A stretch of 64,000 bases of DNA from Sclerodactyla briareus (Eukaryota; Echinodermata; Holothuroidea; Dendrochirotida; Sclerodactylidae), in assembly GCA_026419785.1 (NCBI GenBank), contig JAODTK010005896.1, forward strand, positions 339,501 to 403,500. The letters run 5' to 3'. The notes under the pieces were generated by a model. The model made no database searches and was not told where the DNA came from. It worked only from the letters and a program-made list of their open reading frames with translations. This document shows, in pieces, positions 4,401 through 57,605 of this stretch (position 1 is the stretch's first letter; every line of letters begins with the position of its first letter). The position numbers were made by a program, and so were the translations under genes.

Positions 4401-5590
4401 ATTTGGCAACTGGGCTGAGTAGTACTTTGCGCTCAAAATCTCGTCTATACCAGAGGCACAGGCTCTCCTACTACTTAACACTAATGAATAGTTTTACCCA
4501 TGGCTTTATAATGGTTATGCAAGTATGCAGTCGGGGCATGGGGAGGGCGAGCTATGGTGTCTGAGAGTGGAAAGTTTTCGGGAACGTTATATATGGCACA
4601 TAATCTTCTGCCAGGGTATTACAGATTGTCAGCGGAACAACTGTTCAACGAGTGTTTCTCACTCCAGATATGCACCCCCCAATCCAACATCCCCCTTTCC
4701 TCCCAGCCCCACTTGGAAATTACCAGTGTCATTACTTTCCCCCAACTCCAGTAGTCATTTTAATGACCATGAGGTATTGTCCAATTGTCTGTTTCCCCTC
4801 AGGAGATGTACCCCGACTCCACCCCTGTACACCCCCCTCTCCCTTGCCCCCACAATTATACTAAGCCAATAGTACCTTCATATTAATATTTAAAGTTCCA
4901 ACGTAGCTTTGCCATTACTGTACTTTCCCCGGACTAGGTTTCCGCAGATGCAAACTAAATCCCATGTCATTCCGATTACCCCGATTAATCTTTAATTTTA
5001 TTCCATAGAGCTCTTGTTTACGACAACAGTCCTGAGTAAACTTCTGGAGTGAACCGTCCTGGGTAACCTTCCAGAGGCCGCTCTTCCGTCAACACATCTC
5101 ACTCCAATTTCCAGCCATTGGTGGTGACCTAGAATGTTGTATATATTCGTGTTTATTCCCGATGGAATGCATCAATACATCGCCCAAGTTCCTTTGGACA
5201 TGGGGGAGGGGAAGGTTTGGGGAGGGGGGGGGCGGGCAGTTGTCCGTCAAAGCATCAAGTTTCTGTTGCTATGAAAACTAATAACCCAGAGAGAAAAATG
5301 TTTCACATTTTGATATTTATTCTACATTTTGTTGTTTCGATGGTGTCATTTAGCAGCAGCAAGAGGAGAGAGGTTTATTAGGGAGATATGGGAGTGTATG
5401 GTTAGAGATGAAGAGAATCGGTTTACTTAAGTAGTGTGACCGATCCTACACCTACGGCGTATTTGCCAGTAACACAGGTCAACGGAGTGTCTGGCAATGG
5501 ATTATCGTGCAATTGGTGATTGAGTTACCGTACAGCCTTCACACAAGAGAAATGTTACCGTTACTGATGTTATTTTCACTTGCAAAGGCG
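4401..5590. other. No gene seen
   Basis: C-rich segments (4670-4860) and a G-rich stretch (5200-5240) are present. I see no coding signature on either strand. Confidence 0.4.
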
Positions 5591-14650: not shown

Positions 14651-15764
14651 ACGCAATTGTGAAGTGGGAGGTGGACTGCAAATTTTATATTATTTCCTTT
14701 TCACAATTTGCGCCAGCTTTTCTCAAGAACATTGTTATCTTACACATTCCAACAAAGTTCTTCGTACCAAGGGGCCCTAACTAGGAACTGATCGGGAAAG
14801 CCAGAAAGATGGGAAGCCCAGACACAGCCTGAAACTCTTTTAAATGTGATGAAATCGTTTCTGGAACTGTTGCTGGTCATTGTTGTATAAACTATCCCAT
14901 GCATCAAATTATTCAATTCATAGCCGAGGATCTTATTACTAGAATTATACCTAGGATTTCTGTTGGTCTACATGCTAATCAATCACAGCATCATTTATCG
15001 ACAATCGCTAAAACAATTAAGCATTAATCACAGTGTCATTGAAATTAGGTGGTCATATGGTGTCAGGAGTGTTCAATGCGAGTGATTGAATGGCAGTAAC
15101 AAGTACACATCAATAGCAAAACAGCTGAATACTAGCAATGGTGCTGTGGCAGCTGTGCACAAGTGTATTGATGGCCATTGAGTGAGCAATACATCCCTGC
15201 AACCACTGAAGGATATATGCAGAAATCACTGTTGAACTTTCAAGTTCTCATTGACTCATGGCCAATTGGTTATCTGCGTAATTGTGCAGTATTTGTTTTA
15301 CAAGTGAAAATGTTTGCAAGTGCCCCCAGCAGGATTTAGAAAGGATATATATATATATGGTAGATTTGCTGCATTTCCTGAATTTCAGAAAATTTCAATC
15401 AAAACAACTACCACAGTGAGCTGCTGTCTTCTTCAGGGGATTTTCCAACATAGGGCTGGCAGCCTGACACACACACTACTTGCCACTCAATAATTTCATA
15501 TGGTCCAGGCTATACACCTTGGTATATGTACATCCTGGAGACATGGCTTGTCCAACAGCATGTTAGACAAGCATGGCACGGGACACACCGCCAGAACTGA
15601 AGGTCATACTAACACACTACCAAGTGCACCGGCGAGCACCCCCCCCTCATGACCCCCATTCTCCTCATGGAGAGAGGGTGTGAGACAAGTATCATTCCGA
15701 ACAAAAATATTCGTATGAGATTTAGGATCAGGTACTGTAAGCTGTAAACATCAATACCTAAAGT

Positions 15765-30930: not shown

Positions 30931-30984
30931 CCCTTGTTATACTGGATAATAATTACTTTCACTGTCTTTAAGTTGTAATGATCG

Positions 30985-31180
30985 GGCGGCGATCGTGTGA
31001 ACATTACGGGGACAATATGAGGGTAGCACCATCTGAGGGGGGAGAGCCACCATGGGTTGGGCGCGTAGCGAACAAGGGGAATTTGCAGTGTAGCTTTACA
31101 GACCCCAACAAGTTGCAGGATACGGCACTTCTGGGGGTCATAAGGAGTAAGCATGCCAACAACCCTACAAGCATGAATTC
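30985..31180. repeat. Family B copy
   Basis: GAGCCACCATGGGTTGGGCG, CGTAGCGAACAAGGGGAA, GCTTTACAGACCCC, AAGTTGCAGGATACGGCACT. The same order as the family B block at 25.8 kb. Confidence 0.55.
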
Positions 31181-31507
31181 CCGGAATTTTTATTAAAAAA
31201 CATGCTTGAAGGAACTGATCAATCTTTATTCCGTACAATTCGGAATTCGGGCCACCGTCGGATTGTTGACGCGTAGGGTTACAAAGAATTGTTTTGTTTT
31301 GACAGATCCCCCACCCCCTCCTTCAGAGGAAGGAAAACCGAACCGCATTCCCGGACCGTAGATGGCTGTAAAGCACTGTCCCTAGACCTGGCACTAATTC
31401 AGAATTCATATTTCTAGACACGTTCTATCTGAGGGGGAATACTGGCCAACGTCACGGTTGGAACAAGCGGTCAGAGAACTCGGTGGTGCAGGCGTGAAAA
31501 AAACAGA

Positions 31508-31645
31508 ATTAATCATGATTGGCTGTGAGATGAAATCTGACTGCGTTGGAACTTTTCGCGTTGTGGATGTTCACGATAGCTTCCGGTAGAGTGTTCCAAT
31601 CTCTGAAACGTTCTAGGGAAGAAGAAAAACTTGTAGCAGTCTTAT
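31508..31645 (-). pseudogene. LINE ORF2 C-terminal remnant
   Basis: The minus strand reads CYKFFFFPRTF and, after one frame step, RDWNTLPEAIV, then NIHNAKSSNAVRFHL and a stop. Y-x-F-FFPRTxxxWNxLPxxIV is the standard ending of Jockey/CR1-type reverse-transcriptase ORFs. Only this tail remains. Confidence 0.7.
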
Positions 31646-31699
31646 TCGTCGGCTAGTGTTGAACGAAGCTCTAGGGGGTGTGTGTTGGTGTGCCGATGA

Positions 31700-32455
31700 G
31701 AGGGCGATAACAGGTGATCGGTGATTGGCAAGAAATGGGAATAGTGAAAAGGAGGTCGAACCCATTGATGCACCTTATACGACAAAATAGGAGTGAATGC
31801 CCTGAACGAGCATGGACACTGAGTTTGCCAAACGCGCGGTTGCCAATCACCAATACCAATACTACCTGTCAGATATACTTGGCAATCGGCTACGGGGGAC
31901 TCAGCTACGAGTGTGCAGTCGAGTCATAGGCAGAATCTAGCCGCTCCTCCGTTGCAACAGATTGTGTTAGATTAACAAGCTGGCTTACTTTAATCTAATT
32001 TGTAGCAGTATGTTAGCGGTCCCCACACAATCCGCCGCCGCATCATTCAATGTATCGGCCACCGGTGACGCCCACATCAAGGTCTTCATAGCCGTGAAGT
32101 TCTACTCTGACCGCCCCCTTCGTGAGCCCGGCAATGATGGAGATGCCATTCATAAAGCAATTCAAGCAAGAGTCTGTGATTGTCCGCCGAGTCGGCAGAC
32201 GATTGGGTTACAGATCATTCCAAGAAGATACTAGTCAGGGTAACCCCAATCGGAGTGGCTTTTAGTCTCTGGCAGAAGGAACCTGTCGCGTATAGCCACA
32301 AATCTTGGCATTCCTAGCCATGGGTATAAGAGCATACCCAAAACTTTTCAGACAGTGAAGCTAATTGCCATTTATTTTGCCAGCTACTAGCGTTGTTAAG
32401 ATCCCTCTTGGAGGGTTAGTGATCATATTGTTTGAATTTCTCTGTGCCAACCACA
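31700..32455. other. No recognised gene between repeat units
   Basis: A 74-aa frame at 32,010-32,234 (+) is unusually C/G-balanced, but I recognise no domain and no splice context. Confidence 0.25.
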
Positions 32456-33030
32456 CAGTCATCGGACAAATAATCTAAGTTTTAAATTGAAGGAACTGAT
32501 CGATGTGGTATTCCGTACAATTGGGCACGCCGCACCATCTGGGACGCGTAGGGTACAAAGGGAATTTTTCGTTTATAGACCGCTCAGATTGCAGGAAACG
32601 GCCAGTCCCGCACTGTATGAAGTGAGAACGTCTCTAAAATTGGCAATAATGTTCAGAAATTTGTTTTCAAGACACGTTCTGAAGGAACTAACTGAGTTGT
32701 TTAATCCTTACAATTTGGGCCAGGAATCAGTTGTCTCCTATAGGTACAAAGAAATTTTGAGCCTTACTGACTCCCCCAGATTGCCGGAAACGGTGTGTTC
32801 CATGTTTCCCATGCAGTAAGCAACATCCCAAATTGCACCATTAAATTTCTGAAATGGATATTCAATGACACATCTTGGAGGAACTGATCTACGTTTTATT
32901 CATTACAATTCGCGTCACCCTCAGTTGACGGTTACCGTACAGGAAAATAGTCTTACAGACCACCCCCCCCCCCCCCCCTGGATTGCAGGGAGCGGCACTT
33001 CCCGCGAACTATGGCAGTATGCAAATCACG

Positions 33031-34035
33031 AAATTGAAAGTAAATTTCCGAAAACCGATCGATTGTTACTCCTTACATTTCTTCATCATGGTGTCCATTC
33101 ATACCTAGCCATGTATGAGACATCCCCATCGAGGTCCTTCCAATTGGGTGGAGGCGGTGCCGATGAAAATTGCTTGAACATCCTGTCGTTGAAAATTGTG
33201 TGCATGTTTCGGGAATTTGATTGAAATGAATTAAGCCAGTCAGCAGACATTTGGGGCTTTTTGCCGATTTAGTATCCGCTCAAATGTTCGTCCAAATTTC
33301 ACATGTCTCAGAATGTGTTCGCCCCTCTTGCGCCTATATAGTGCGAAACGTCAATCACGTGAACATCCATACTAATGTTGCACGGCTCCCCTGGCCTGCT
33401 GTTTTCGTTACCATAGAGCTTTCATCCCTATTAAAAAAACAGCACAGCCAAGATGGCAAAGCCAAATGCTGAACATAAGAGATCAGAAGTCGTAGACTAA
33501 ACTGAGGGGCAGTGTTTAAGAAATCGCAGTTGGATTCCGGATTGTTCACAGTGGGAGGGGGGGGGTGGGTTGTGCAAATGATCAAGTCCTAAACCACAAT
33601 TCTCTGTGGCACACCTATATGTTCCACGGCACCTACACTTGAAAGATGGGCAAGTATGGACAAAAAAATGAATATTTGCCACAGAATTGACAACGTTATT
33701 ATGTTTGATTTTTACCGTGGGCCCCTGTATTATACATGAACGGAAAAGATAGGGATTACCGACCGTGCGCAGCGCGATTTTGTTTCTGTTGGCATTTTCG
33801 GATTTCTCACTCAAAAAAAAATTGAACAACTAATAAAAAAGGGGGGGGGGGAAAAATCAAAATATGAGTTGACATCAAGTACATGAATACCCGACTTACG
33901 CAGCCAGCTATCGAAAACCGGGATACCAAATTTGTGGAATATTGATCCAGGAACCATGAACTCAGTAGTGGTGCTCGCGCGCCATCAGAAAAATCGGAGG
34001 GTTGGCGGCACCCCCAGCACCCCCCCCCCCCCTCT
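33031..34035. other. No gene seen; G/C runs
   Basis: Open frames on both strands have no domain. G/C runs lie at 33,554-33,562, 33,841-33,850 and 34,020-34,031. A GTGCGCAGCGCGATTTTG palindromic word at about 33,764 resembles the family B motif. Confidence 0.35.
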
Positions 34036-35535
34036 CGCAAGGTGGCGGTGGGGAGGCACCACAAGCCTGCGCTGTATAGGTACGTGAATAACGGAGAGGT
34101 TGGGGGCACAAAACTGCGCTGGTATAGGTACGATGAAATTGAAATGAGAGGTTGGGAGCACAAATTAGCCAGCGGCTTGCCAAAGGTCGTGAAATTACTG
34201 AGAGGTTGTGGGGCACACAGCCTGCGATTGTATAGGGTCTAAATACGTGAAATTATGGAGAGGTTGGGAGGCATACAAGCCTGCGCTTGTATATATGTAC
34301 GTGAATTATGAGAGTGGGGGGCCACACACGCCTCTGCGCTGTATAGGTATAATACGTGAAATATGAGAGGTTGGGAGGCACAGCCTAGCTGGTATATATG
34401 TACGTGAAAAAACTTACTGAAGAGGTTGGGAGGAACATAAGCTACGCTTGTATAGATTGGAATCACTGAGAGTTGGGAGGCACACAAGCCTGCGCTTGTA
34501 TAGGTACGTGGAACCAATGAGAGGTTGGGAGGAACATAAGCCTACGCTTGTATAGGATTGGAATCATGAGAGGTTGGGAGGCATACAAGGCCTGCGTTTG
34601 TATATATGTACGTGAAATTACTGAGAGGTGTGGGAGGCATACAACTGCGCTTGTTAGAGGTAAGTGGAATCACTGAGAGGTTGGGAGGAACATAGCCTAC
34701 CTTGTATAGGCTGGAATCATGAGAGGTTGGGAGGCATACAAGCCGCGGCTTGTATATATGTTACGGAAATTACATGAGAGGTTGGGAGGCATACAAGCCT
34801 GCGCTTGTATAGGTACGTGGAATCACTGAGAGGTTGGGAGGAACATTAAGCCTACGCTTGTATAGGATTGGAATCAATGAGAGGTTTGGAGGCACACAAG
34901 CCTGCGCTTGTATATATGTACGTGAAAGTACTGAGAGGTGGGAGCATAAAAGCATGCGCTTGTATAGGTACGTGAAATTACTGGATGTTGGGAGGCACAT
35001 AAGCCTACGCTTGTATAGTAGTGGAATCCCTGAGAGGTTGGGACAGCATTCATACAAGGCCTTGCGCTGTGTACATAAATCACTGAAGGAGGGTTGGGAG
35101 GCACATAAGTCTACGCTTGTATAGTAGTGGAATCACTGAGAGGCTGGGAGGCACACAAGGCCTGCGCTTGATGATGTACGTGAAATTACTGAGAGGTTGG
35201 GAGGCACACAAGCCTGCGCTTGTTTACATAGAATCACTGAGAGGTTGGGAGGCACATAAGCTAAGCTTGTATAGTAGTGGCAGCACTGAGAGGCTGGGAG
35301 GCACACAAGGCATGCGCTGTACATATGTACGTGAAATTACTGAGAGTTTGGGAGCATACAAGCTGGCTTGTGTACATAGAAATTCATGAGAGGTTGGGGG
35401 AGGACTAAGCCTACGCTTGTGATAGTAGTAGATCACTGAGAGGCTGGGAGGCACACAAGCCTGCGCTTGTATATATGTACGTGAAATACGAGAGGTTGGG
35501 AGGCACACAAGCCTGCGCTTGTAAAGGTACGAGCA
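34036..35535. repeat. ~54-bp minisatellite, about 27 copies
   Basis: The consensus unit contains TACGTGAAATTACTGAGAGG, TTGGGAGGCACACAAGCC and TGCGCTTGTATATATG. At least two subtypes alternate: one with CACACAAGCCTGCGCTTGT, one with ACATAAGCCTACGCTTGTAT followed by AGGATTGGAATCA or AGTAGTGGAATCA. Each unit carries a small inverted repeat (ACAAGC...GCTTGT), so single strands could form a hairpin per unit. Copies differ by many one-base indels. Long open frames on both strands arise from this repetition and are not genes. Confidence 0.92.
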
Positions 35536-36614: not shown

Positions 36615-36720
36615 TGGAGGACCGAGCGGCCTGGCATCGAGGCCGGCCTTGAGGCTAGTTTTTGGCCGCCTCGGCCTCGGAGCTTCCGGCTACGGATTTT
36701 GGGCCGAGGCGGACCAAAAT
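36615..36720. repeat. GGCCTCGG-rich block, left
   Basis: Dense GGCCGCCTCGGCCTCGGAG and CCGAGGCGG words, partly inverted, followed by a T-run. Related to 38,385-38,500. Confidence 0.65.
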
Positions 36721-36724
36721 TTTT

Positions 36725-37650
36725 TTTGTATGAAAATAGGAACAAATGAAAATTATGTCACAAATGATGCTTCGACTGGATTTGTTTGAATTTCTCGACA
36801 ATTTGAACTAACGTAGCATACCCAGGTATCACCCAAGACTGCCGATAAAATTGTTGGCGCTGAGTTCGGCCGCCGTTGTGCAATTCCCCAGTGCAGTGTA
36901 GAGTGCTGGCGCCTAGCGAGATCGCTGGCCATAGACATCTTACAGTAAGGAATGCACTTGCACTGCCAAAGTTCACACATACGCGTATGTATTGCTTTGT
37001 GTACAAAGCGAGAAGAATCCTGCACGGCGCCGGCCAGCGTGTGAAACATCACTTACTGATCGCCCCCCTTAGGTCGTAGTAGAAGTTGCGAGATGAAATT
37101 CTAGTCTCCAGGGAATAAAACTGTGCATAAGCTGACCCATTAAAATACGAAGAATGTGTTCTGTTCTGCAGATCGTGAATGTATTGTACATTCAATATAA
37201 ATTTATATTTATTACAACTGACACTTGCGTCTGTGGTGTGGTACATGAGAAAATCACACCAAAAACATTTTTTATTCCTTCATGCATATATCCCCACATG
37301 GGGGATATAATGGTTCTGTCTTCGCAGAAGCGCCGCCGCCCCGACGAGAATTCATGTTAGCGACGATAACTCTCCAACGCGTTGTCGGGTTGGACTTGAA
37401 ACGTTGCCCCCATGGTTTATCGAATAAAATATCAGATCAGCCAAAAATGGGCGTCCCTCGCCCCACACCACGAGAGGCGAGCATCCTGGTTTTTTATTTC
37501 GTTACTTTTTTATCGCTGATTTGCGTGTTTGGAACATGGCGATCAGTTTTAAGAATAACTTTCGTGTTAGCCTCATGGACCCCACGAATCTTAGTCGTTA
37601 TCGAATCAGATCGACATTGTCTCTCCCGGCCCAGTGAGTGCCCAAATAGT
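36725..37650. other. No gene seen
   Basis: Overlapping short frames on both strands at 36.75-37.05 and 37.28-37.66 kb show no domain or splice evidence. Confidence 0.3.
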
Positions 37651-37654
37651 GTGG

Positions 37655-37844
37655 GTATATAGATATATAGATATCTATATATATATAATATATATATATA
37701 TTATATATATACTATATATATATATATATATGTGCACGGTTTACCCGATAGGCGGAGGGCTGTTATGATTGACTTTAGTCAAAGGAATCTATGGAGTCAT
37801 GACAGTGTGTGTGTGTGTGTGTGGGTGGTGTGTGCGTGTGTGTG
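37655..37844. repeat. (TA)n and (GT)n microsatellites
   Basis: An imperfect TA tract occupies about 37,655-37,732 and a GT tract about 37,805-37,844. Confidence 0.92.
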
Positions 37845-38384
37845 ATGCTGGAGTGTTAACACGATTGAACTCACTTCCCCACGTTGGTGGATCAAGCTCA
37901 CCTTTACTTGGTATGTGGCAGGTTATCTGCTGATTAAAATCCACCAGCCCTTTGGAAGCAGCTGGATGCAGCCAGAATCAAGTGACTCTGCTTTCTCCAC
38001 AGATGCTGGAATTACTGATGTTTTCAAAATTCCCAGTGCAAGAACATGTCATAGCATCTAAGGCTTCCATCGTACTCTGTCTTCCTGCATTGTGCACTTA
38101 TAAGAGTCATGATTGTAGAGGGTTTATGTGAGGATAAGTATAACCTTTATAGCCAATCTCAAAGCATTACATTTCACAACTGCATTCATATTTTTTTCAT
38201 TCGATTTAATGACGTCAAGAAAATTTGTTGCATATCAACTTGTGCTTGGTCAATCTCATTTTCCGGGACAAACATTCTGTCTCCAATATTAACCATAATG
38301 ACTAGCGGCAGCCATGAGGAAAAAAAAAATACTTTATGTATTCAAACAAGGTAATTTTAAATGTTATGCTGTTATATTTATGCC

Positions 38385-46907: not shown

Positions 46908-48116
46908 ATGGGGGAATTCCACAGTATTTTTCTGTTGCGGACGGGACATTTTGCCAATGAAAACGTTGATTACTTATAATTAGATCATTTGCATGGCTGA
47001 GAGATGTAGTTATTCAGAATCAGCTATCATGACATAACCATTAAAACATTTTCATTTCAGTAATGTAACATTAAGGTAGTTGCGGACGGACAGAGAAAAG
47101 GGGACATTGGACAGAGGAAGCAAATTTCAACGCAGTTACTCTTTAGACAGGTAAAATTAATGTTAAAGAAAAAAAAAATGATTGTTATGGGACGGGACAT
47201 TAGCAAACGTCTTTGCGGACGGGACAAAATAGTTTCCTGGAGGCCCCCTTATCCAAATCAACAGCAATAATGACTAACAGTCAATTAGATTAGAATGGGT
47301 TCCCAACGTCACCATGAATAATGTGATAAATAATCCCCCTCTTTCACAGCAGGTGCATTACTGTCAAAGTACAGTGCCATACACTGTCAATGGGAATGTC
47401 CCGTCCGCAACGTTGGAGAATGTCCCGTCCGCAACATTTTAACTATTTAACAACTCAGGCTTAATGAAGGTAACAGTAGAAAAACAGTGGCCCAGGAGGG
47501 TGTTTTATCGTAATTAGTGAATGGAAAATACTAGCAGTGCTGGAAAATATAGAGATGAATGATGAAACTTTCAAGTCTCATCATGTTTAAGGAATGATTT
47601 ATGTGATAGTGGAGAGTAAATAAGGTACTGCAATGCACAGCTTCAATTAAAAAATGTCCCATCCGCAACAAATGTCCCGTCCGCAACAGATATGATGAAT
47701 TAATTAACAGGGTTAAATTAATGTAGTGGAATTAAGAAAAACACAGGGGAGTGTGGATTGGATCTAAGAAAGAGAACCTAAGAAGGACAAGAAAAATATG
47801 GACTAGTGATGAAGTTATTGGAAAAAAAAACGTTGAAATTTGTTGCGGACGGGACATTTAACTTTTGCTAAATAATTAGTACTTATTACTAGTCCTACAG
47901 ATACATTGAGGTTGAATAATTAGGTATTGGATGACCTACTTGACTTGAGTTTTATACCATTCCCCTTCTGTTCCACTGTTTATTCTAGGAAATGTCCCGT
48001 CCGCAACGGTATTCCCAGGTTCGTTTACTTCGCGAGTTAATTAATTACCATGGAAGCATTTTTTTTTAGAAAATAAATTTGCCCATTCTTGTCCCGTTTA
48101 CTGTGGAATGCCCCAT
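46908..48116. mobile_element. 1.2-kb TIR element with an array of GTTGCGGACGGGACAT motifs
   Basis: The left end ATGGGGGAATTCCACAGTA (46,908-46,926) and the right end, read on the minus strand as ATGGGGCATTCCACAGTA (48,099-48,116), are near-identical inverted repeats. Between them the 16-mer GTTGCGGACGGGACAT occurs at 46,934 (+), 47,079 (+, one base short), 47,184 (+, partial), 47,213 (+, partial), 47,396 (-), 47,420 (-), 47,654 (- variant), 47,672 (-), 47,842 (+), 47,992 (-) and as a partial at 48,090 (-). Three pairs are only 18-29 bp apart. The outermost motifs sit just inside the inverted ends. There is no ORF. Repeated subterminal motifs are typical transposase-binding sites of DNA transposons; the superfamily is unclear because no convincing target duplication is seen. 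Confidence 0.75.
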
Positions 48117-48949: not shown

Positions 48950-49700
48950 TGTCAAAGCATTCCATGTGTGGCGTTGCAGATTTGTAAGGACTGATTATGA
49001 CCATGTCTACCACGTAGATGAGAGGAGTATATTAATTTGAAATACTCAAGATGTTTCATGGGAATCCAAAACTGGGAATTGCCTGAATGAAGCAAATAAA
49101 AAAAACCATCGAACAACCCCATGAACTCAAAGCATGTTCAATTATTTGGGCTTAAAAGGTAAACCATACAATCAAGCTTCATGAAAATCGAACACGAAAC
49201 AACGAACATTGGAGAAATCCTGTAACGAGAAAGTGAGGATACACCAAAAATACATGACAAATGATCACTAAGTCTCTTCCTGTACTTGGTTCATTTTCGC
49301 TGCAAACAGAACATTTTTCAGTACAGTATAAAGTCTGAAAACTATACTCCCTACTTGGTCATATTCATATGTCACCAGTATGGGCACATAATCATCTGAT
49401 AATAGTACACAAAAACATAATATGTCCGCTGGACCGCCAACAATACTAACAAGAAGATATCTTGTACGCAAGCTTCCGGCCATTTTCATTTAATATGCCA
49501 ATTTATGCAAATGAGTATGTCTTTCGGGTCGAAAGGTGGATGCACATCGAACAAGCTTCACCGTTACACCTCACAAAAGGTTTCAGTATGACGGCTTCAC
49601 GTCATGAGATATCGAATCCCGCACATACGGACAGACAGACTGACAGGCAGACACACACACACCAAATTGACCACTATGTATCTCCTTGAACGAAGTTCAG
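48950..49700. repeat. Dispersed repeat family D, copy 1
   Basis: Landmarks: AAGGACTGATTATGACCATG (48,987), GCAAGCTTCCGGCCATTTTC, TTATGCAAATGAGTATG, TCGGGTCGAAAGGTGGATGC, CACATACGGACAGACAGAC with a CA tract, CTCCTTGAACGAAGTTCAGG. The same order is found at 57.02-57.60 kb. This is a non-coding dispersed family with an internal CAGACAGA/CACA microsatellite. Confidence 0.7.
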
Positions 49701-49891
49701 GCGAGGCAAAAACACTGGAAGCAATACTGTTATAGTTTCCTACCCCTACAGTGTTTTCAGGACTCCTACAGAACTTGAACGAAGCGGGCAAGACAAAAAT
49801 CATTGGAATTTTGTTCCCATGAATATATTTAGAAATTATGTCGTTGTTTCTTTGTTTTTTTTCAGAATGGTAGACAAGCTTATTCTTTGTG

Positions 49892-52479: not shown

Positions 52480-52965
52480 CCTTGCTGTGAAGAGTAAAGG
52501 AAACTTGTTGGGTCTATATCGTTCTTCTGGTGCCTTGTCTTTTTTGGATCATTTTAATGTTCAAACAATTCCCGTGCGTTTTTCTCTTATATTAGGGGGA
52601 AGCAGAAGGTTAAAGATAGCATTGGTCCATTGTTGGATCCTGATACTGGTACTACGGTTGGGAAGTCGGGACATGTCAGATATTCTCAATAATTTATCTC
52701 GCTGTTGGTGAATCACCAGAGGCTCAAGCATGGCAGATCTCCTGGCCCGGATGCTGTTTACCCCTTCTTTTTGAAGTCTCTTGCAGACTATCTCTATACT
52801 CCGTTGCGACATTTCAATATAACTCCGGAGGCAGGTATTGTTCCTGATGATTGGAGGAGGGCGAATGTTTGTCTCATTTTCAAGAAAGGTAACTGATCTC
52901 TTTCGAGCAATTACAGGCCTGTCAGTAGACACACGTATCGTTTTGTAAGGTGATGGAATCGATAG
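52480..52965 (+). pseudogene. CR1-type LINE ORF2, linker and RT N-terminal part
   Basis: With frame steps the plus strand reads NVQTIPVRFFSYIRGKQK-like text, KVKDSIGPLLDPDTG, MSDILNN, then RSPGPDAVYPFFLKSLADY and VPDDWRRANVCLIFKKG, and ends in a CKVMESI-like stretch. This is the canonical run of CR1/L2/Jockey RTs: FxxYIRxK, IGPLxxxxG, xxxLNxYFxSV, SPGPDGIxPxxLK, xxxGxVPxxWKxAxVxPIFKKG, NYRPVSLxSxxxKxxExI. The reading stops abruptly at AATCGATAG (52,957-52,965), where a foreign GC-rich block begins. It continues at 56,731. Confidence 0.85.
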
Positions 52966-52975
52966 GAAACGGCCC

Positions 52976-53495
52976 CCCCTTACCCCGACCTCTCCTGTCG
53001 GGACCTCCGGACCGTCCCGAGGTGTAACGACACCCCGTTCAGACCCGGCCCCGACCTTACCAGTCCGGCCTGGACAGGCCAAGACGAGCCACTTCGGCCC
53101 GCCCCGCCTGAGTCGGTCCCGACCTTACCTGTCGGGACCTCCGGGCCGTCCCGAGGTGTAACGACACCCGTTCGGGCCCGGCGCCGAGGGAAGGACCGGC
53201 AGAGCCGGCCTCCTCGACGTGCGAGACAACCAGGGGCTGTCCCGCCGGCTTTAGGGTTTTTTTTCAGCTCCTGCCCACTGGCCCCCGAAGGGGCCAAGCT
53301 CGGGTCCAGGGGGATAGTCCCCCCTGGACCGTTCCTCTTCTTCGAGCGCCGCCCTATCACTGGGCCTTCCCTGCCGTCGGTAGGTAGTTTTCGTAGACAG
53401 GCGGCTCCTCCCAGCGTCCCTCTGTCCCTGGTAGCGAATGGCCGGAAGGTATCCGGTGCCGACACACTTCCCGTATCTGAGGAAAGTCCCGCTAC
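52976..53495. repeat. GC-rich block with a ~135-bp tandem duplication
   Basis: Two copies at about 52,982 and 53,118 share CCGACCTNNCCTGTCGGGAC, CTCCGGNCCGTCCCGAGGTG and TAACGACACCC. The rest is GC-rich with inverted words (CCCCCTGGACC, GGCCCCCGAAGGGGCC). Composition is very unlike the flanking LINE and DIRS coding. It replaces the catalytic part of the DIRS recombinase, so it marks either a rearranged element end or a separate insertion. Confidence 0.7.
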
Positions 53496-53498
53496 TGA

Positions 53499-53570
53499 AA
53501 ACTGGGTCCACTTGCGATAGTAGGTATCATATTGTTGTCTTGTACTATTTCGCCAAGACGCGTTCAGGAT
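53499..53570 (-). pseudogene. DIRS tyrosine recombinase, N-terminal stub
   Basis: The minus strand reads ILNASWRNSTRQQYDTYYRK followed by WTQF. This matches the start of the core-binding domain of DIRS-type tyrosine recombinases (xxxSWRxSTxxQYxxYxxxWxxF). Similarity ends here; the R...HxxR...Y catalytic domain is absent from the window. Confidence 0.75.
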
Positions 53571-53574
53571 ATCA

Positions 53575-54515
53575 GTGGAAACTGATGAGAGACCTCGGCT
53601 TCGAAAAGCTTGCCGGATAACTGGCACGCCAGGAGACGCAATTGAGGTGTTAACGGATGACTCATCCTTGTCCCCGGAAGGTGAAGCAGACATTGGGTCT
53701 GTGGAAGAACCAGTGGATGGCCAATCGGGTACCACCACAATACCGCTGGCCTGATCTAATCTGACCTTTTGCAAAACTTTGCCAATTAACCCAAATGGTG
53801 GAAAGGCACAGAAATAAAAAGATGCCCAATTCACTGAAAAGGCATCTATAAAATGCGCTGCAGGGTCTGGTTTCCACGATACGTAATTGTGGAGTTGGGT
53901 ATTATATTTAGACGCAAACAAATCAATTTCTGGGGCGCCAGACGTTGCCCACTATGGACTCGAAATTTGATCGCTGCAACATCCACTCAGCGTGTCGTTT
54001 ACAGGGGTCACGTGACAGCCTATCTGCCTACAACGTTTTTGTGCCTGGTAAATGCGTTGCTGATAGCCATATATTTCGTTGTATGGCCCACCGCCATACC
54101 GATTTAGCAATGGAATTGCAAGTTTTAGAATGGCATCCGCCCATGTTATTAATATAGGAGACCGATGTCATATTATCTGTTTGAATACGAATGTGTGAAT
54201 TTCTGCAGCCACTTGTCAAGGACGCCAGTGCATGGAAAATGGCTTTTAACTCTAGCGCATATTACATGAATCTAAAGAGGACGTCTGTATCCCATTTGTC
54301 AAGCTATTTCGCAATGAGGCTTTAAAAGGACGGCACCCCAGCCTTCCAACGATGCATCCGTTTGAATAATTAAGGTCTGGGTCCCCAATCACTATATTGC
54401 GACATGCCTTCGTTAGATTGGTTTCCCACCAAGTCAGGTCTGACAAAGAAGCTGCTGAAAGAATCATATTGTCATCAAAATTCCCGTGAGCCTGGGCCAG
54501 AGCTAGCACCTTGTC
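53575..54515 (-). pseudogene. DIRS RNase H domain
   Basis: In minus-strand order, with frame steps: VLALAQAHGNFDDNMILSA, LTWWETNL, SRNSHIRIQTDN-like text, NMTSVSYINNMGG, WLSATHLPGTK, then FASKYNTQLHNYVSWKPDP and DAFSVNW. IxTDNxTxVxYINxxGG, xxHIPGxxNxxAD and LFAxxxNxQLxxYxSWxPDPxAxxVDAF are standard for DIRS/Ngaro RNase H and the segment just after it. The protein normally degrades the RNA strand of the replication hybrid. Stops and shifts show the copy is dead. Confidence 0.85.
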
Positions 54516-55055
54516 CTTTCCGATTGACCTGTAGAAAAGGGGCCATACCTAACCCCAGGAAAGAGGGATACAATATGGCCAATAACTGTAGCCACCTCCC
54601 TAACGGAAGGCATCATTCGTAAGTGGGATAGGGCTGGTTTCAGCAGTTTTGTAAAAACATCTAGGGGCGGAAGTGATACCAATTCCACATAAATCGTAAA
54701 TATTTCCGTGATAGAACATGCATTGGTACAGAATAGTACGCGTCCCGAAGGTCCACAGAGGCCATAAAGCAGTCTTTCTGCAGTAGTTTCAAAGCAGCGG
54801 GCAGGCCATCCATCTTAAAATGCCGATATTTTATAAACCCATTTAGCCTTTTGAGGTTGAAAATCATTCTGTGCGACCCGTTCTTCTTTGGGATGACAAA
54901 AATATTAGAAACATATTCCCCAGGGGAATGCTGGGCATGCTCTATTACCCTTTTAGAAAGTAAGGTCTGCACCTCTTTTTCAATGACGCGATGCTCCCCG
55001 TCTGTACGCACTGGCTCGGACGGGGCATGTTCTTGGGAGGGTGCGAAGCGGTCAA
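54500..55055 (-). pseudogene. DIRS reverse transcriptase lacking its YxDD segment
   Basis: The minus strand reads EKEVQTLLSKRVIEHAQHSP, GEYVSNIFVIPKKNGSHRMI, FNLKRLNGFIKYRHFKMDGL, KDCFMASVDLRDAYYSVPM and YLRFMWNWYHFRP. Fingers and palm motifs up to the first catalytic Asp (SVDLRDAYYSVP) are well preserved. The frame then runs FTKLLKPALSHLR and passes straight into MMPSVREVATVIGHIVSLFP, which belongs after the palm. The intervening segment with YxDD is gone without breaking the frame, so the element cannot polymerise DNA. Confidence 0.88.
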
Positions 55056-55204
55056 ATTCAATTTGACACCCTGTGATATATTCGATTAGTTTTTATCTGA
55101 TGTTAACTCCTGCCAACGTGGAAGGAATCGCTTTATTCTGCCACCAATGGCGTCTGTGGTACCTTCCGTTTGTACAACATTATCGAAAATCTCACCTTGT
55201 ACAT

Positions 55205-56110
55205 TCACTTCCGTTGTGCCAGCTGTTTGATACGGCATCGGGGCGATTCTTGCCTCACCTGGCATTGCCGCCTCCGTAGTTCAAAAATGCCCCCGGCAAC
55301 GGAAAACCTGACCCCGACTCGTGGGAACTGATAACGGCTCGTCCCTCTGCCTCTACCCCGAGAAACATCGCTTACTCGGGACGATATCTTACTCGCCTCT
55401 TCAATATCCTGTAACTTTTGCGCGACATTATCCCCCAACAACATGGTGGTCACGGGGTTAGACCGATGCACAAGGAGCGGCATTCCATCTTCAATCTGAG
55501 CGCAACGCTTCCCTGCGAAACTGATTAAGCTCCATGTTGGCGTTTCCCATGAGCGCCATGGCGTTTCGAACTTTAATCACAACAGCCTCGAGAGCTCCCT
55601 GAGCATCCATATCTCATCTAACAAAGTGGGTAGGCTTGTCAGGGCCTTAATATTCATAACTGTATGTTCTGTAACTTGACAATCTTCCGGCCTGTGGCCC
55701 CCCTCGCATACCATTCCAGAAAACACCATTGATCTGATTGTTTTGTAACATTTCCACATTTACGGGCATGTCATAGCAGGCCAGGAGCTCCTTGACCTTG
55801 TGATCAGGTAGGCGTTGGGTTAATAAGCTATCTACCATTTCCCTTAACTCGGGCCCCACTGGTTTCCCCGGTTTCTTACTTTGGTCCAGGGAAGGAGGTC
55901 AAATCTCCATGAAACTTGTCGTCCCCATCCCCTTGTGGAGTCGAGTCAAAGGGAATCTGGCACTGTAAATATGGCGTCGTCCGAAACCAGATCCTCTAGC
56001 GTCCAGCACCGCCAGCACAGAGGTGCCCGGACTATAGGGGTTTTTCAAGTTAGAAAACCCGCTTCATTGTGAGCCAATACCCCGCCCCGACCCCCGATTG
56101 GCCAACTGCG
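55205..56110 (-). pseudogene. DIRS ORF1 (Gag-like) remnant
   Basis: Minus-strand pieces in order: KKPGKPVGPELREMVDSLL, VKELLACYDMPVNVEMLQ, NQINGVFWN, TEHTVMNIKALTSLP, ALEAVVIKVRNAMALMGNAN, PVTTMLLGDNVAQKLQDIEE and SKISSRVSDVSRGRGRGTSR. The NxxxWN, xxxxQxxLxxxLxPL-like and ALxLLGNANxxxN steps, the LFGDDLxxxxxDI-like step and a basic RGRG stretch fit the ORF1 product of DIRS elements, which precedes RT. Several shifts interrupt it. The assignment rests on pattern memory and on its position directly upstream of RT. Confidence 0.7.
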
Positions 56111-57342: not shown

Positions 57343-57605
57343 AACACGCGCGAGATTAAAGTAATCACTATGACTCTCCTTGAACAAAGTTCAGGCGAGG
57401 ACAACATGGATGTGAATGCATAACGTTTCCACGGTCATGGAGATTTATCGAAACCTCACAAACGGAAACGTGGACAGACCAGACACGCCACCACCACACA
57501 CACACAAAACACAAACACACACACAAACACGCGCGGATAAAGTGATCCTATGACTCTCCTTGAAAAAGGTCAGGCGAGACAACATTGGATGTGGACTGAA
57601 GCTTG
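57015..57605. repeat. Dispersed repeat family D, copies 2 and 3
   Basis: This matches 48.95-49.70 kb: AAATTATGCAAATTAGGATA, ATCAAGCTTTCCAGGCATTT, TCGGGACGAAAGTGGGATAC, GGTTCAGGAGATATGAAACC, GGACGGACAGACAGACAG, a CA tract and CTCCTTGAACAAAGTTCAGG. From about 57,385 the second half is repeated (GTTTCCACGGTCATGGAGAT, CGTGGACAGACC, CA tract, CTCCTTGAAAAAGGTCAGGC), a local tandem duplication. Confidence 0.75.

Follow-up and report, generated by a model that had tools for sequence, protein, structure and literature searches.

A family of non-autonomous DNA transposons in the sea cucumber Sclerodactyla briareus with a 17-bp site module repeated over the whole element

Transposase-bound repeats are already known near transposon ends. 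In En/Spm (CACTA), 12-bp TnpA sites in both orientations are clustered in the subterminal regions and are bound by an element-encoded accessory protein; the terminal inverted repeat (TIR) begins with CACTA and the target duplication is 3 bp. Academ and Chapaev have target duplications of about 4 bp, and piggyBac, Kolobok and Sola3 duplicate TTAA. The CENP-B box in alpha satellite is a 17-bp protein site with a transposase-derived binder and a spacing on the scale of the nucleosome repeat. For Ac/Ds (hAT), the sections of the source that were available describe transposase-bound AAACGG hexamers within 200 bp of either terminus, an 8-bp target duplication, an 11-bp TIR, and non-autonomous copies that have the TIRs and some of the motif copies in common and can differ in their filler DNA (PMC3260210). 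Likewise from partial sources, Sola2 has a 4-bp target duplication, AT-rich in the elements described (PMC3627910), ISL2EU has a 2-bp AT duplication (PMC4482050), and the coral CMITEs are non-coding, piggyBac-linked elements whose TIRs are less conserved between families than is the interior (PMC2872659). The element reported here resembles Ac/Ds, as portrayed in those sections, in its many copies of a short motif, its common ends and its different filler DNA, and is unlike it in that a 17-bp module extends over the whole element and the duplication is 4 bp. As in En/Spm, sites are found in both orientations, but here they are not restricted to the subterminal regions. The CMITEs have one conserved internal region according to their abstract, whereas here there is a spaced array of sites, and CENP-B boxes have a different motif and lie in tandem satellite monomers, whereas here the carrier is a mobile element.

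The window, i.e., the whole stretch of 64,000 nucleotides that was analysed, contains one internally deleted copy of the element (Table 1). At up to three mismatches, the 16-mer GTTGCGGACGGGACAT had 8 matches in the window, on both strands and every one at 46934-48007, against 0.39 expected, and a count of 8 was reached in none of 100 shuffles. An indel-tolerant scan gave two more copies (47184-47200 and 47079-47093), which together with a partial site at the right end agrees with the eight or so good and three partial copies of the preliminary description. The three close doublets, given there as 18-29 bp apart, have start spacings of 28, 24 and 18 bp (47184/47212, 47396/47420 and 47654/47672), and the reported lack of an ORF was borne out by a longest stop-free frame of 68 aa. 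The end sequence ATGGGGCATTCCACAGTA (up to three mismatches) matched within the window solely at 46909-46926 and 48099-48116. Thus the pair of inverted repeats described earlier is present at both ends, but the repeat found family-wide is 16 bp, not 18-19 bp. The sites had also been said to fill the whole element; they do span the entire body, but their placement is ordered, in steps of 165-215 bp, and not random. The window copy falls 301 bp short of the family majority and is a deleted derivative of the form of about 1.5 kb. On direct reading, the DNA is shortened on either side of site 2, and the site itself is kept in split form.

Table 1. Features of the element in the window (positions in the window; A denotes the family to which the copy belongs).
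Feature	Position	Strand	Remarks
Family-A element, internally deleted copy	46911..48114	+	1204 bp, limits set by the family's ends; about 1505 bp when complete
Left terminal inverted repeat GGGGAATTCCACAGTA	46911..46926	+	1 mismatch to the family's GGGGCATTCCACAGTA; extra G before it
Site 1	46934..46949	+	exact; 23 bp from left end
Site 2	47079..47107	+	split by about 13 bp (direct reading); indel-tolerant match 47079-47093
Doublet 1, first site	47184..47200	+	with indel
Doublet 1, second site	47212..47227	+	2 mismatches
Doublet 2, first site	47396..47411	-	exact
Doublet 2, second site	47420..47435	-	exact
Doublet 3, first site	47654..47669	-	1 mismatch
Doublet 3, second site	47672..47687	-	exact
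Single site	47842..47857	+	exact
Last full site	47992..48007	-	exact
Partial site adjoining right inverted repeat	48090..48098	-	direct reading; many copies have TTGGACAAG here
Right terminal inverted repeat	48099..48114	-	exact

Several other repeats were seen in the window. Positions 1-2850 hold a repeat of about 950-1000 bp in three decayed tandem copies (families D8 and D11). A minisatellite with a 52-bp unit, repeated about 29 times, occupies 34047-35531 and has higher-order periods near 103, 153 and 310 bp. A 43-bp dispersed repeat occurs at 49664-49706 and 57358-57400 (86% alike). The fragment at 54661-55092 matches a reverse transcriptase (RVT_1, E 1.4e-6, just under the curated cut-off) and is adjoined by open frames over 52561-55576 on the minus strand, which by its look we take to be a DIRS-type retroelement.

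Further copies were sought in the window's own assembly (319 Mb, 3171 contigs). The window element gave 112 matching pieces (40 of the 51 first-look candidates scored), and its left 171 bp gave 33 matches on 33 contigs (33 of 33 candidates scored). Whether a second copy of the unit exists had been left to be checked; full-length copies were found, and the earlier classification as a TIR element agrees with the shared inverted repeat at both ends and with the multi-copy family in the genome. The complete length of this family, called A, is about 1.5 kb. A majority sequence of 1505 columns was made from 17 copies, some of them without one end. The K2P distances to it are 0.05-0.22 in 15 of the 17 copies and 0.37 and 0.42 in the other two, hence the family is not young. 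In the majority sequence the longest frame from ATG is 48 aa and the longest stop-free stretch 103 aa, without a transposase gene. The 16-bp inverted repeat, found at both ends of copies, occurs at up to one mismatch at 65 places in the genome versus 4 for the reversed pattern, and five of the 65 form a minisatellite-like row on contig C3005. In this row (G000:C3005:238666-238876) five GTGGCATTCCACAGTA follow each other in 39-bp steps or multiples thereof, an inverted-repeat look-alike that is probably a minisatellite. The looser pattern of a TIR plus the first site was found at 8 places versus none in the control; A copies hold six of the 8, and copies of a second family, B, the other two. 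Two TIR-only matches (L114 and L115) were without element body. For the exact 16-mer there are 60 places in the genome, 6 of them in the window. The preliminary description had asked whether it also occurs outside such elements; by reading, 58 of the 60 places fall in elements of family A, of family B or related to A, and the remaining ones, on C2468 and C2974, are unassigned. With up to two mismatches the 16-mer has 357 places versus 94 for the reversed control, so that a share of these inexact places is chance. Family A is a non-autonomous TIR-type DNA transposon family.

Both ends could be placed in 19 copies, a few of them loosely. The four flanking bases agree 4/4 in six of the 19 (L067 GAAA, L072 CTCA, L074 ATAT, L084 AATA, L092 TTTG and L094 ACAA) and 3/4 in two more (L068 and L078), while the flanks of L095 agree 5/5 at 5 bp. 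One flanking repeat is common to L091-L095, i.e., to five of the 19 copies with two of the six perfect cases; these are therefore probably not independent, which leaves about five independent perfect cases. Target duplications of family A are 4 bp. The flanking duplication that was looked for at the window copy itself was not clear there, the bases outside its ends agreeing 1/4, and is seen at other copies. One copy, L082 on C2065, is an exception to the 4-bp rule of the family, with flanks agreeing 7/8 at 8 bp and 1/4 at 4 bp. In family B, the flanks of L101 agree 2/4 by direct reading, and no target duplication is established in that family. The duplication in family A thus differs from the 8 bp of hAT, L082 excepted, from the AT of ISL2EU as given in the available part of its source, and from the TTAA of piggyBac, Kolobok and Sola3, which is not among the six perfect cases. 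Its length is that of Sola2, Academ and Chapaev, but membership in these groups rests on the transposase, and none was found here. The Sola2 duplications in the consulted part of the source are AT-rich; those found here are the six given above.

The sites of the majority sequence share a 17-bp module, GTTGCGGACGGGACATT, in which 15 positions are identical in 10 of 10 sites and two more in 9 of 10. The borders of the module are sharp, as the flanks of the ten sites are mixed. In the family-A majority the sites start (1-based) at +24, +194, +389/+413, -599/-617, +789, -960/-980, +1149 and -1314, where +194 is a site followed by an altered tail. They stand single or doubled in steps of about 165-215 bp; the distances between cluster centres are 171, 206, 207, 181, 181, 179 and 165 bp, and the blocks between the sites measure 154, 179, 170, 156, 155, 153 and 149 bp with 26-41% G+C. 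Seven short copies (L091-L095, L111 and L113) have only one or two recognisable sites. These A derivatives, about 540-630 bp long, sit within one longer repeat (more than 2 kb) that has apparently been dispersed together with its short A insert.

Part of the array arose by duplication. In full-block alignment, family-A block 4 agrees with block 6 at 96/133 positions and parts of blocks 5 and 7 agree at 40/54 (z 10.9 and 6.1, respectively), and these are the only clearly alike pairs among 210 comparisons; masked BLAST, unlike the full-block alignment, did not see this duplication. Indeed, a stretch of about 360 bp, comprising a minus doublet and a plus single site, was tandemly duplicated long ago in A. 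A newer duplication of about 430 bp (83% identity) is present in the copy L083. Blocks 1-3 have no strong mutual similarity (the highest score, z 3.0 among 210 comparisons, being that of A1/A3). Origin of the element as a satellite or tandem-repeat array was considered and rejected except for blocks 4/6 and 5/7, there being no head-to-tail units throughout.

The second family, B, consists of eight loci joined by DNA similarity (L101, L105, L106, L108, L118, L119, L121 and L123); L122 showed no such link to them. An end near GGGCAATTCCAYACTA was found in five of the eight, at both ends of L101 and at one end of L106, L108, L119 and L121. A site-masked family-A profile gave nothing above background in L101, L105, L106 and L108. 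The block pair A6/B6, in opposite orientation, scored z 4.2 among 210 comparisons, by which the bodies of A and B may be distantly homologous. The B majority, made of nine rows from the eight loci and of columns with at least three copies, has sites at +27, +200, +404/+426, +603/+625, -1194/-1213, +1381 and -1578, a match at 441 with four mismatches being left out of this list. All 10 of these sites have G where A has C, at a position that was left open in the scan; single deviations are the terminal site of L108, with C, and one site of L101, with T. At up to one mismatch the G-type 16-mer occurs at 84 places versus one in the control, of which 9 are exact and many others are C-type sites one base off. 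In the left half, the sites of the two majorities are at most 15 bp apart (24, 194, 389/413 and 599/617 versus 27, 200, 404/426 and 603/625), and those of the B copy L108 (24, 191 and 386/408, with four edits in the last) are within 5 bp of 24, 194 and 389/413 of A. A weak minus match is also present at 163 in L108. In both A and L101, 192 bp separate the start of the last full site from the right end. The A doublet at -599/-617 is inverted relative to that of B at +603/+625, and B has a gap of 589 bp where A has sites and where two would be expected. Other relatives were also met: L102 (C2145) and L103 (C2912) are related to A, with parts rearranged and an extra stretch of about 700 bp in common, and L109 has two sites at 908-1118, with starts 195 bp apart and without similarity to family A, possibly a third lineage.

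An autonomous relative with the same ends, which the preliminary description had proposed to look for, did not turn up at the 33 left-end matches, either in the window or in the examined stretches (minus the first 62 bases of C2943). Long copies are interrupted by inserts. Nothing above the curated Pfam cut-offs was found in six frames each of L085, L102, L095 and L096, in three frames of part of L103, in six frames of the C113 insert, in ten frames of C929 and six frames of both its gaps, or in six frames of the L071 insert and three of the L079 insert, with the reservations that other copies were judged by open-frame length at most and that the Pfam models and the assembly may be incomplete. 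The L071 insert gave one sub-threshold match (E 0.0085, 17 bits versus a cut-off of 34.1). No superfamily is assigned, because no transposase was found in the scanned copies. Parts of the inserts in C929, C2366 and C2137 match dispersed repeats elsewhere in the window, and the window repeats at 30984-33569 and 36668-38304 have 73-75% identity to the inserts of the C2366 and C2137 copies. The inserts of the A copy L069 (C929) and the B copy L118 (C113) have a 277-bp stretch in common (79%), and that of C113 lies between the two sites of one doublet and has its own 21-bp inverted ends; it is therefore read as a separate repeat nested in both. By its look this insert is presumably DIRS-like, for which Pfam and a PDB sequence search (one frame) gave no support, and it may instead be the remains of a coding version. 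In a viral collection the exact 16-mer matched eight loci, once each and without an array, and this was dismissed as chance, as were one match of the TIR-plus-site pattern in surroundings unlike the element and 19 loci with the core doublet without 16-mer arrays, both in the viral and prokaryote collections. The doublet pattern had no match in the prokaryote collection, and no title or abstract start about this element was found in open-licence PubMed Central.

These data are probably best explained by a non-autonomous cut-and-paste transposon with recognition sites for the mobilising machinery over its whole body. The element would be moved in trans, the 16-bp inverted repeats serving as the cleavage ends. 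The module would be the recognition site for a DNA-binding part of the machinery, either the transposase or a second element-encoded protein, and would be repeated over the entire element, not just near the ends, in an array that owes at least part of its growth to a unit of about 360 bp with two clusters, which was duplicated in tandem. The bound protein might help to assemble the ends or to bring them together. From the near confinement of the exact module to the elements, and from its joint variation with the TIR in B, we infer binding by a protein of the mobilising machinery. Movement may be possible without the complete array, since short copies with one or two sites exist, although these may have spread inside the larger carrier repeat instead. 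That neither a transposase nor an autonomous copy turned up in the scanned copies also weighs against the proposal.

The spacing of the sites allows another, more tentative proposal, which we hold possible but doubtful. The array might act as a chromatin ruler, with a recognition cluster in each linker and about one nucleosome between clusters, so that the protein would cover and phase the element over its full length, and might hold it open or fold its ends together. Selection would then keep the sequence and the spacing of the sites, and the DNA between them would be free to change. This is supported by the block lengths of 149-179 bp, by the best site periods, 187 bp in A and 195 bp in B, which random clusters reach in 8 and 4 of 20000 trials when the null is scanned on a coarser grid of periods, and by the left-half agreement of A and B, whose inter-site DNA had no homology in the four loci compared. 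It is weakened by the 589-bp gap in B, by the weak 10-bp dinucleotide signal (reached by 8 of 300 shuffles) and by the duplication in A, which makes part of the regularity non-independent. The clusters had been treated as independent, and the regularity tests therefore weigh less: the first, at 2/298075, ignored the duplication and is too strong, and the test with the split site omitted (seven clusters) is weak, at 5375/114559. The nucleosome-scale spacing is suggestive, as a lead only.

It is unlikely that the sites bind a host protein, such as an activator, a silencer or a boundary factor, and that the transposase uses the inverted repeats only. The position of the sites over the entire body and not at the ends alone, the steps of about 165-215 bp, on the scale of the nucleosome, and the long and sharply bounded module, as for a multi-finger site, would all suit such a factor. 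It should, however, have other sites in the genome, and the exact 16-mer is almost confined to the elements; the joint change of module and inverted repeat in B is, moreover, what is expected of an element-encoded partner.

Since the duplication in A, the three paired sites have stayed identical (48/48) versus 136/187 in the portions of the blocks that align (p 2e-6), and in the A relative L103 the sites agree at 61/64 positions versus 233/314 for the rest (p 6e-5). In the 17-copy alignment the sites exceed the rest only slightly in identity to the majority (87.5% versus 84.2%), and the observed value is reached in 3 of 1473 circular shifts. Individual sites lie between the 27th and the 99th percentile of conservation, and CpG positions are 84.4% identical in sites versus 71.5% elsewhere. 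Pooled over 23 loci the sites agree at 1863/2034 positions and the rest at 14851/16966. Taken singly, five of these loci have sites significantly better conserved than the rest (p < 0.05) and five have sites that are less conserved, in a test that includes several alignments per locus, some of them anchored by the sites. With one best alignment per locus, seven of nine loci were aligned and two of the seven were significant, L083 and L103. The sites have thus changed less than the surrounding DNA between lineages, clearly so in some diverged ones, and in most other copies no such difference is seen. Selection acting on source elements, with copies decaying neutrally once inserted, would explain this pattern, although gene conversion among sites could mimic conservation. 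We think it rather improbable that the array was simply left by tandem duplication and has no present function, its sites being alike through gene conversion or recency. The old duplication of blocks 4/6 and 5/7 and the newer one in L083 speak for this, but the sites between blocks 1-3 of A are nearly identical in spite of the dissimilar blocks, the blocks of B differ and yet its layout is similar, and the similarity stops sharply at the 17-bp borders. A view of the sites as traces left by very small nested insertions, and not as binding sites, is highly improbable: near-identical short modules in differing DNA and in both orientations would agree with it, but there are no duplicated flanks around the sites, and many copies have sites at the same positions, which in the left half holds across both families.

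We return to the sites as proposed recognition sites of the mobilising machinery. The 17-bp module can be used as bait for finding the protein, and the C/G-switched families A and B allow a test of its specificity. If the proposal is true, a non-autonomous element would be read by the machinery along its full length, perhaps in units of chromatin.
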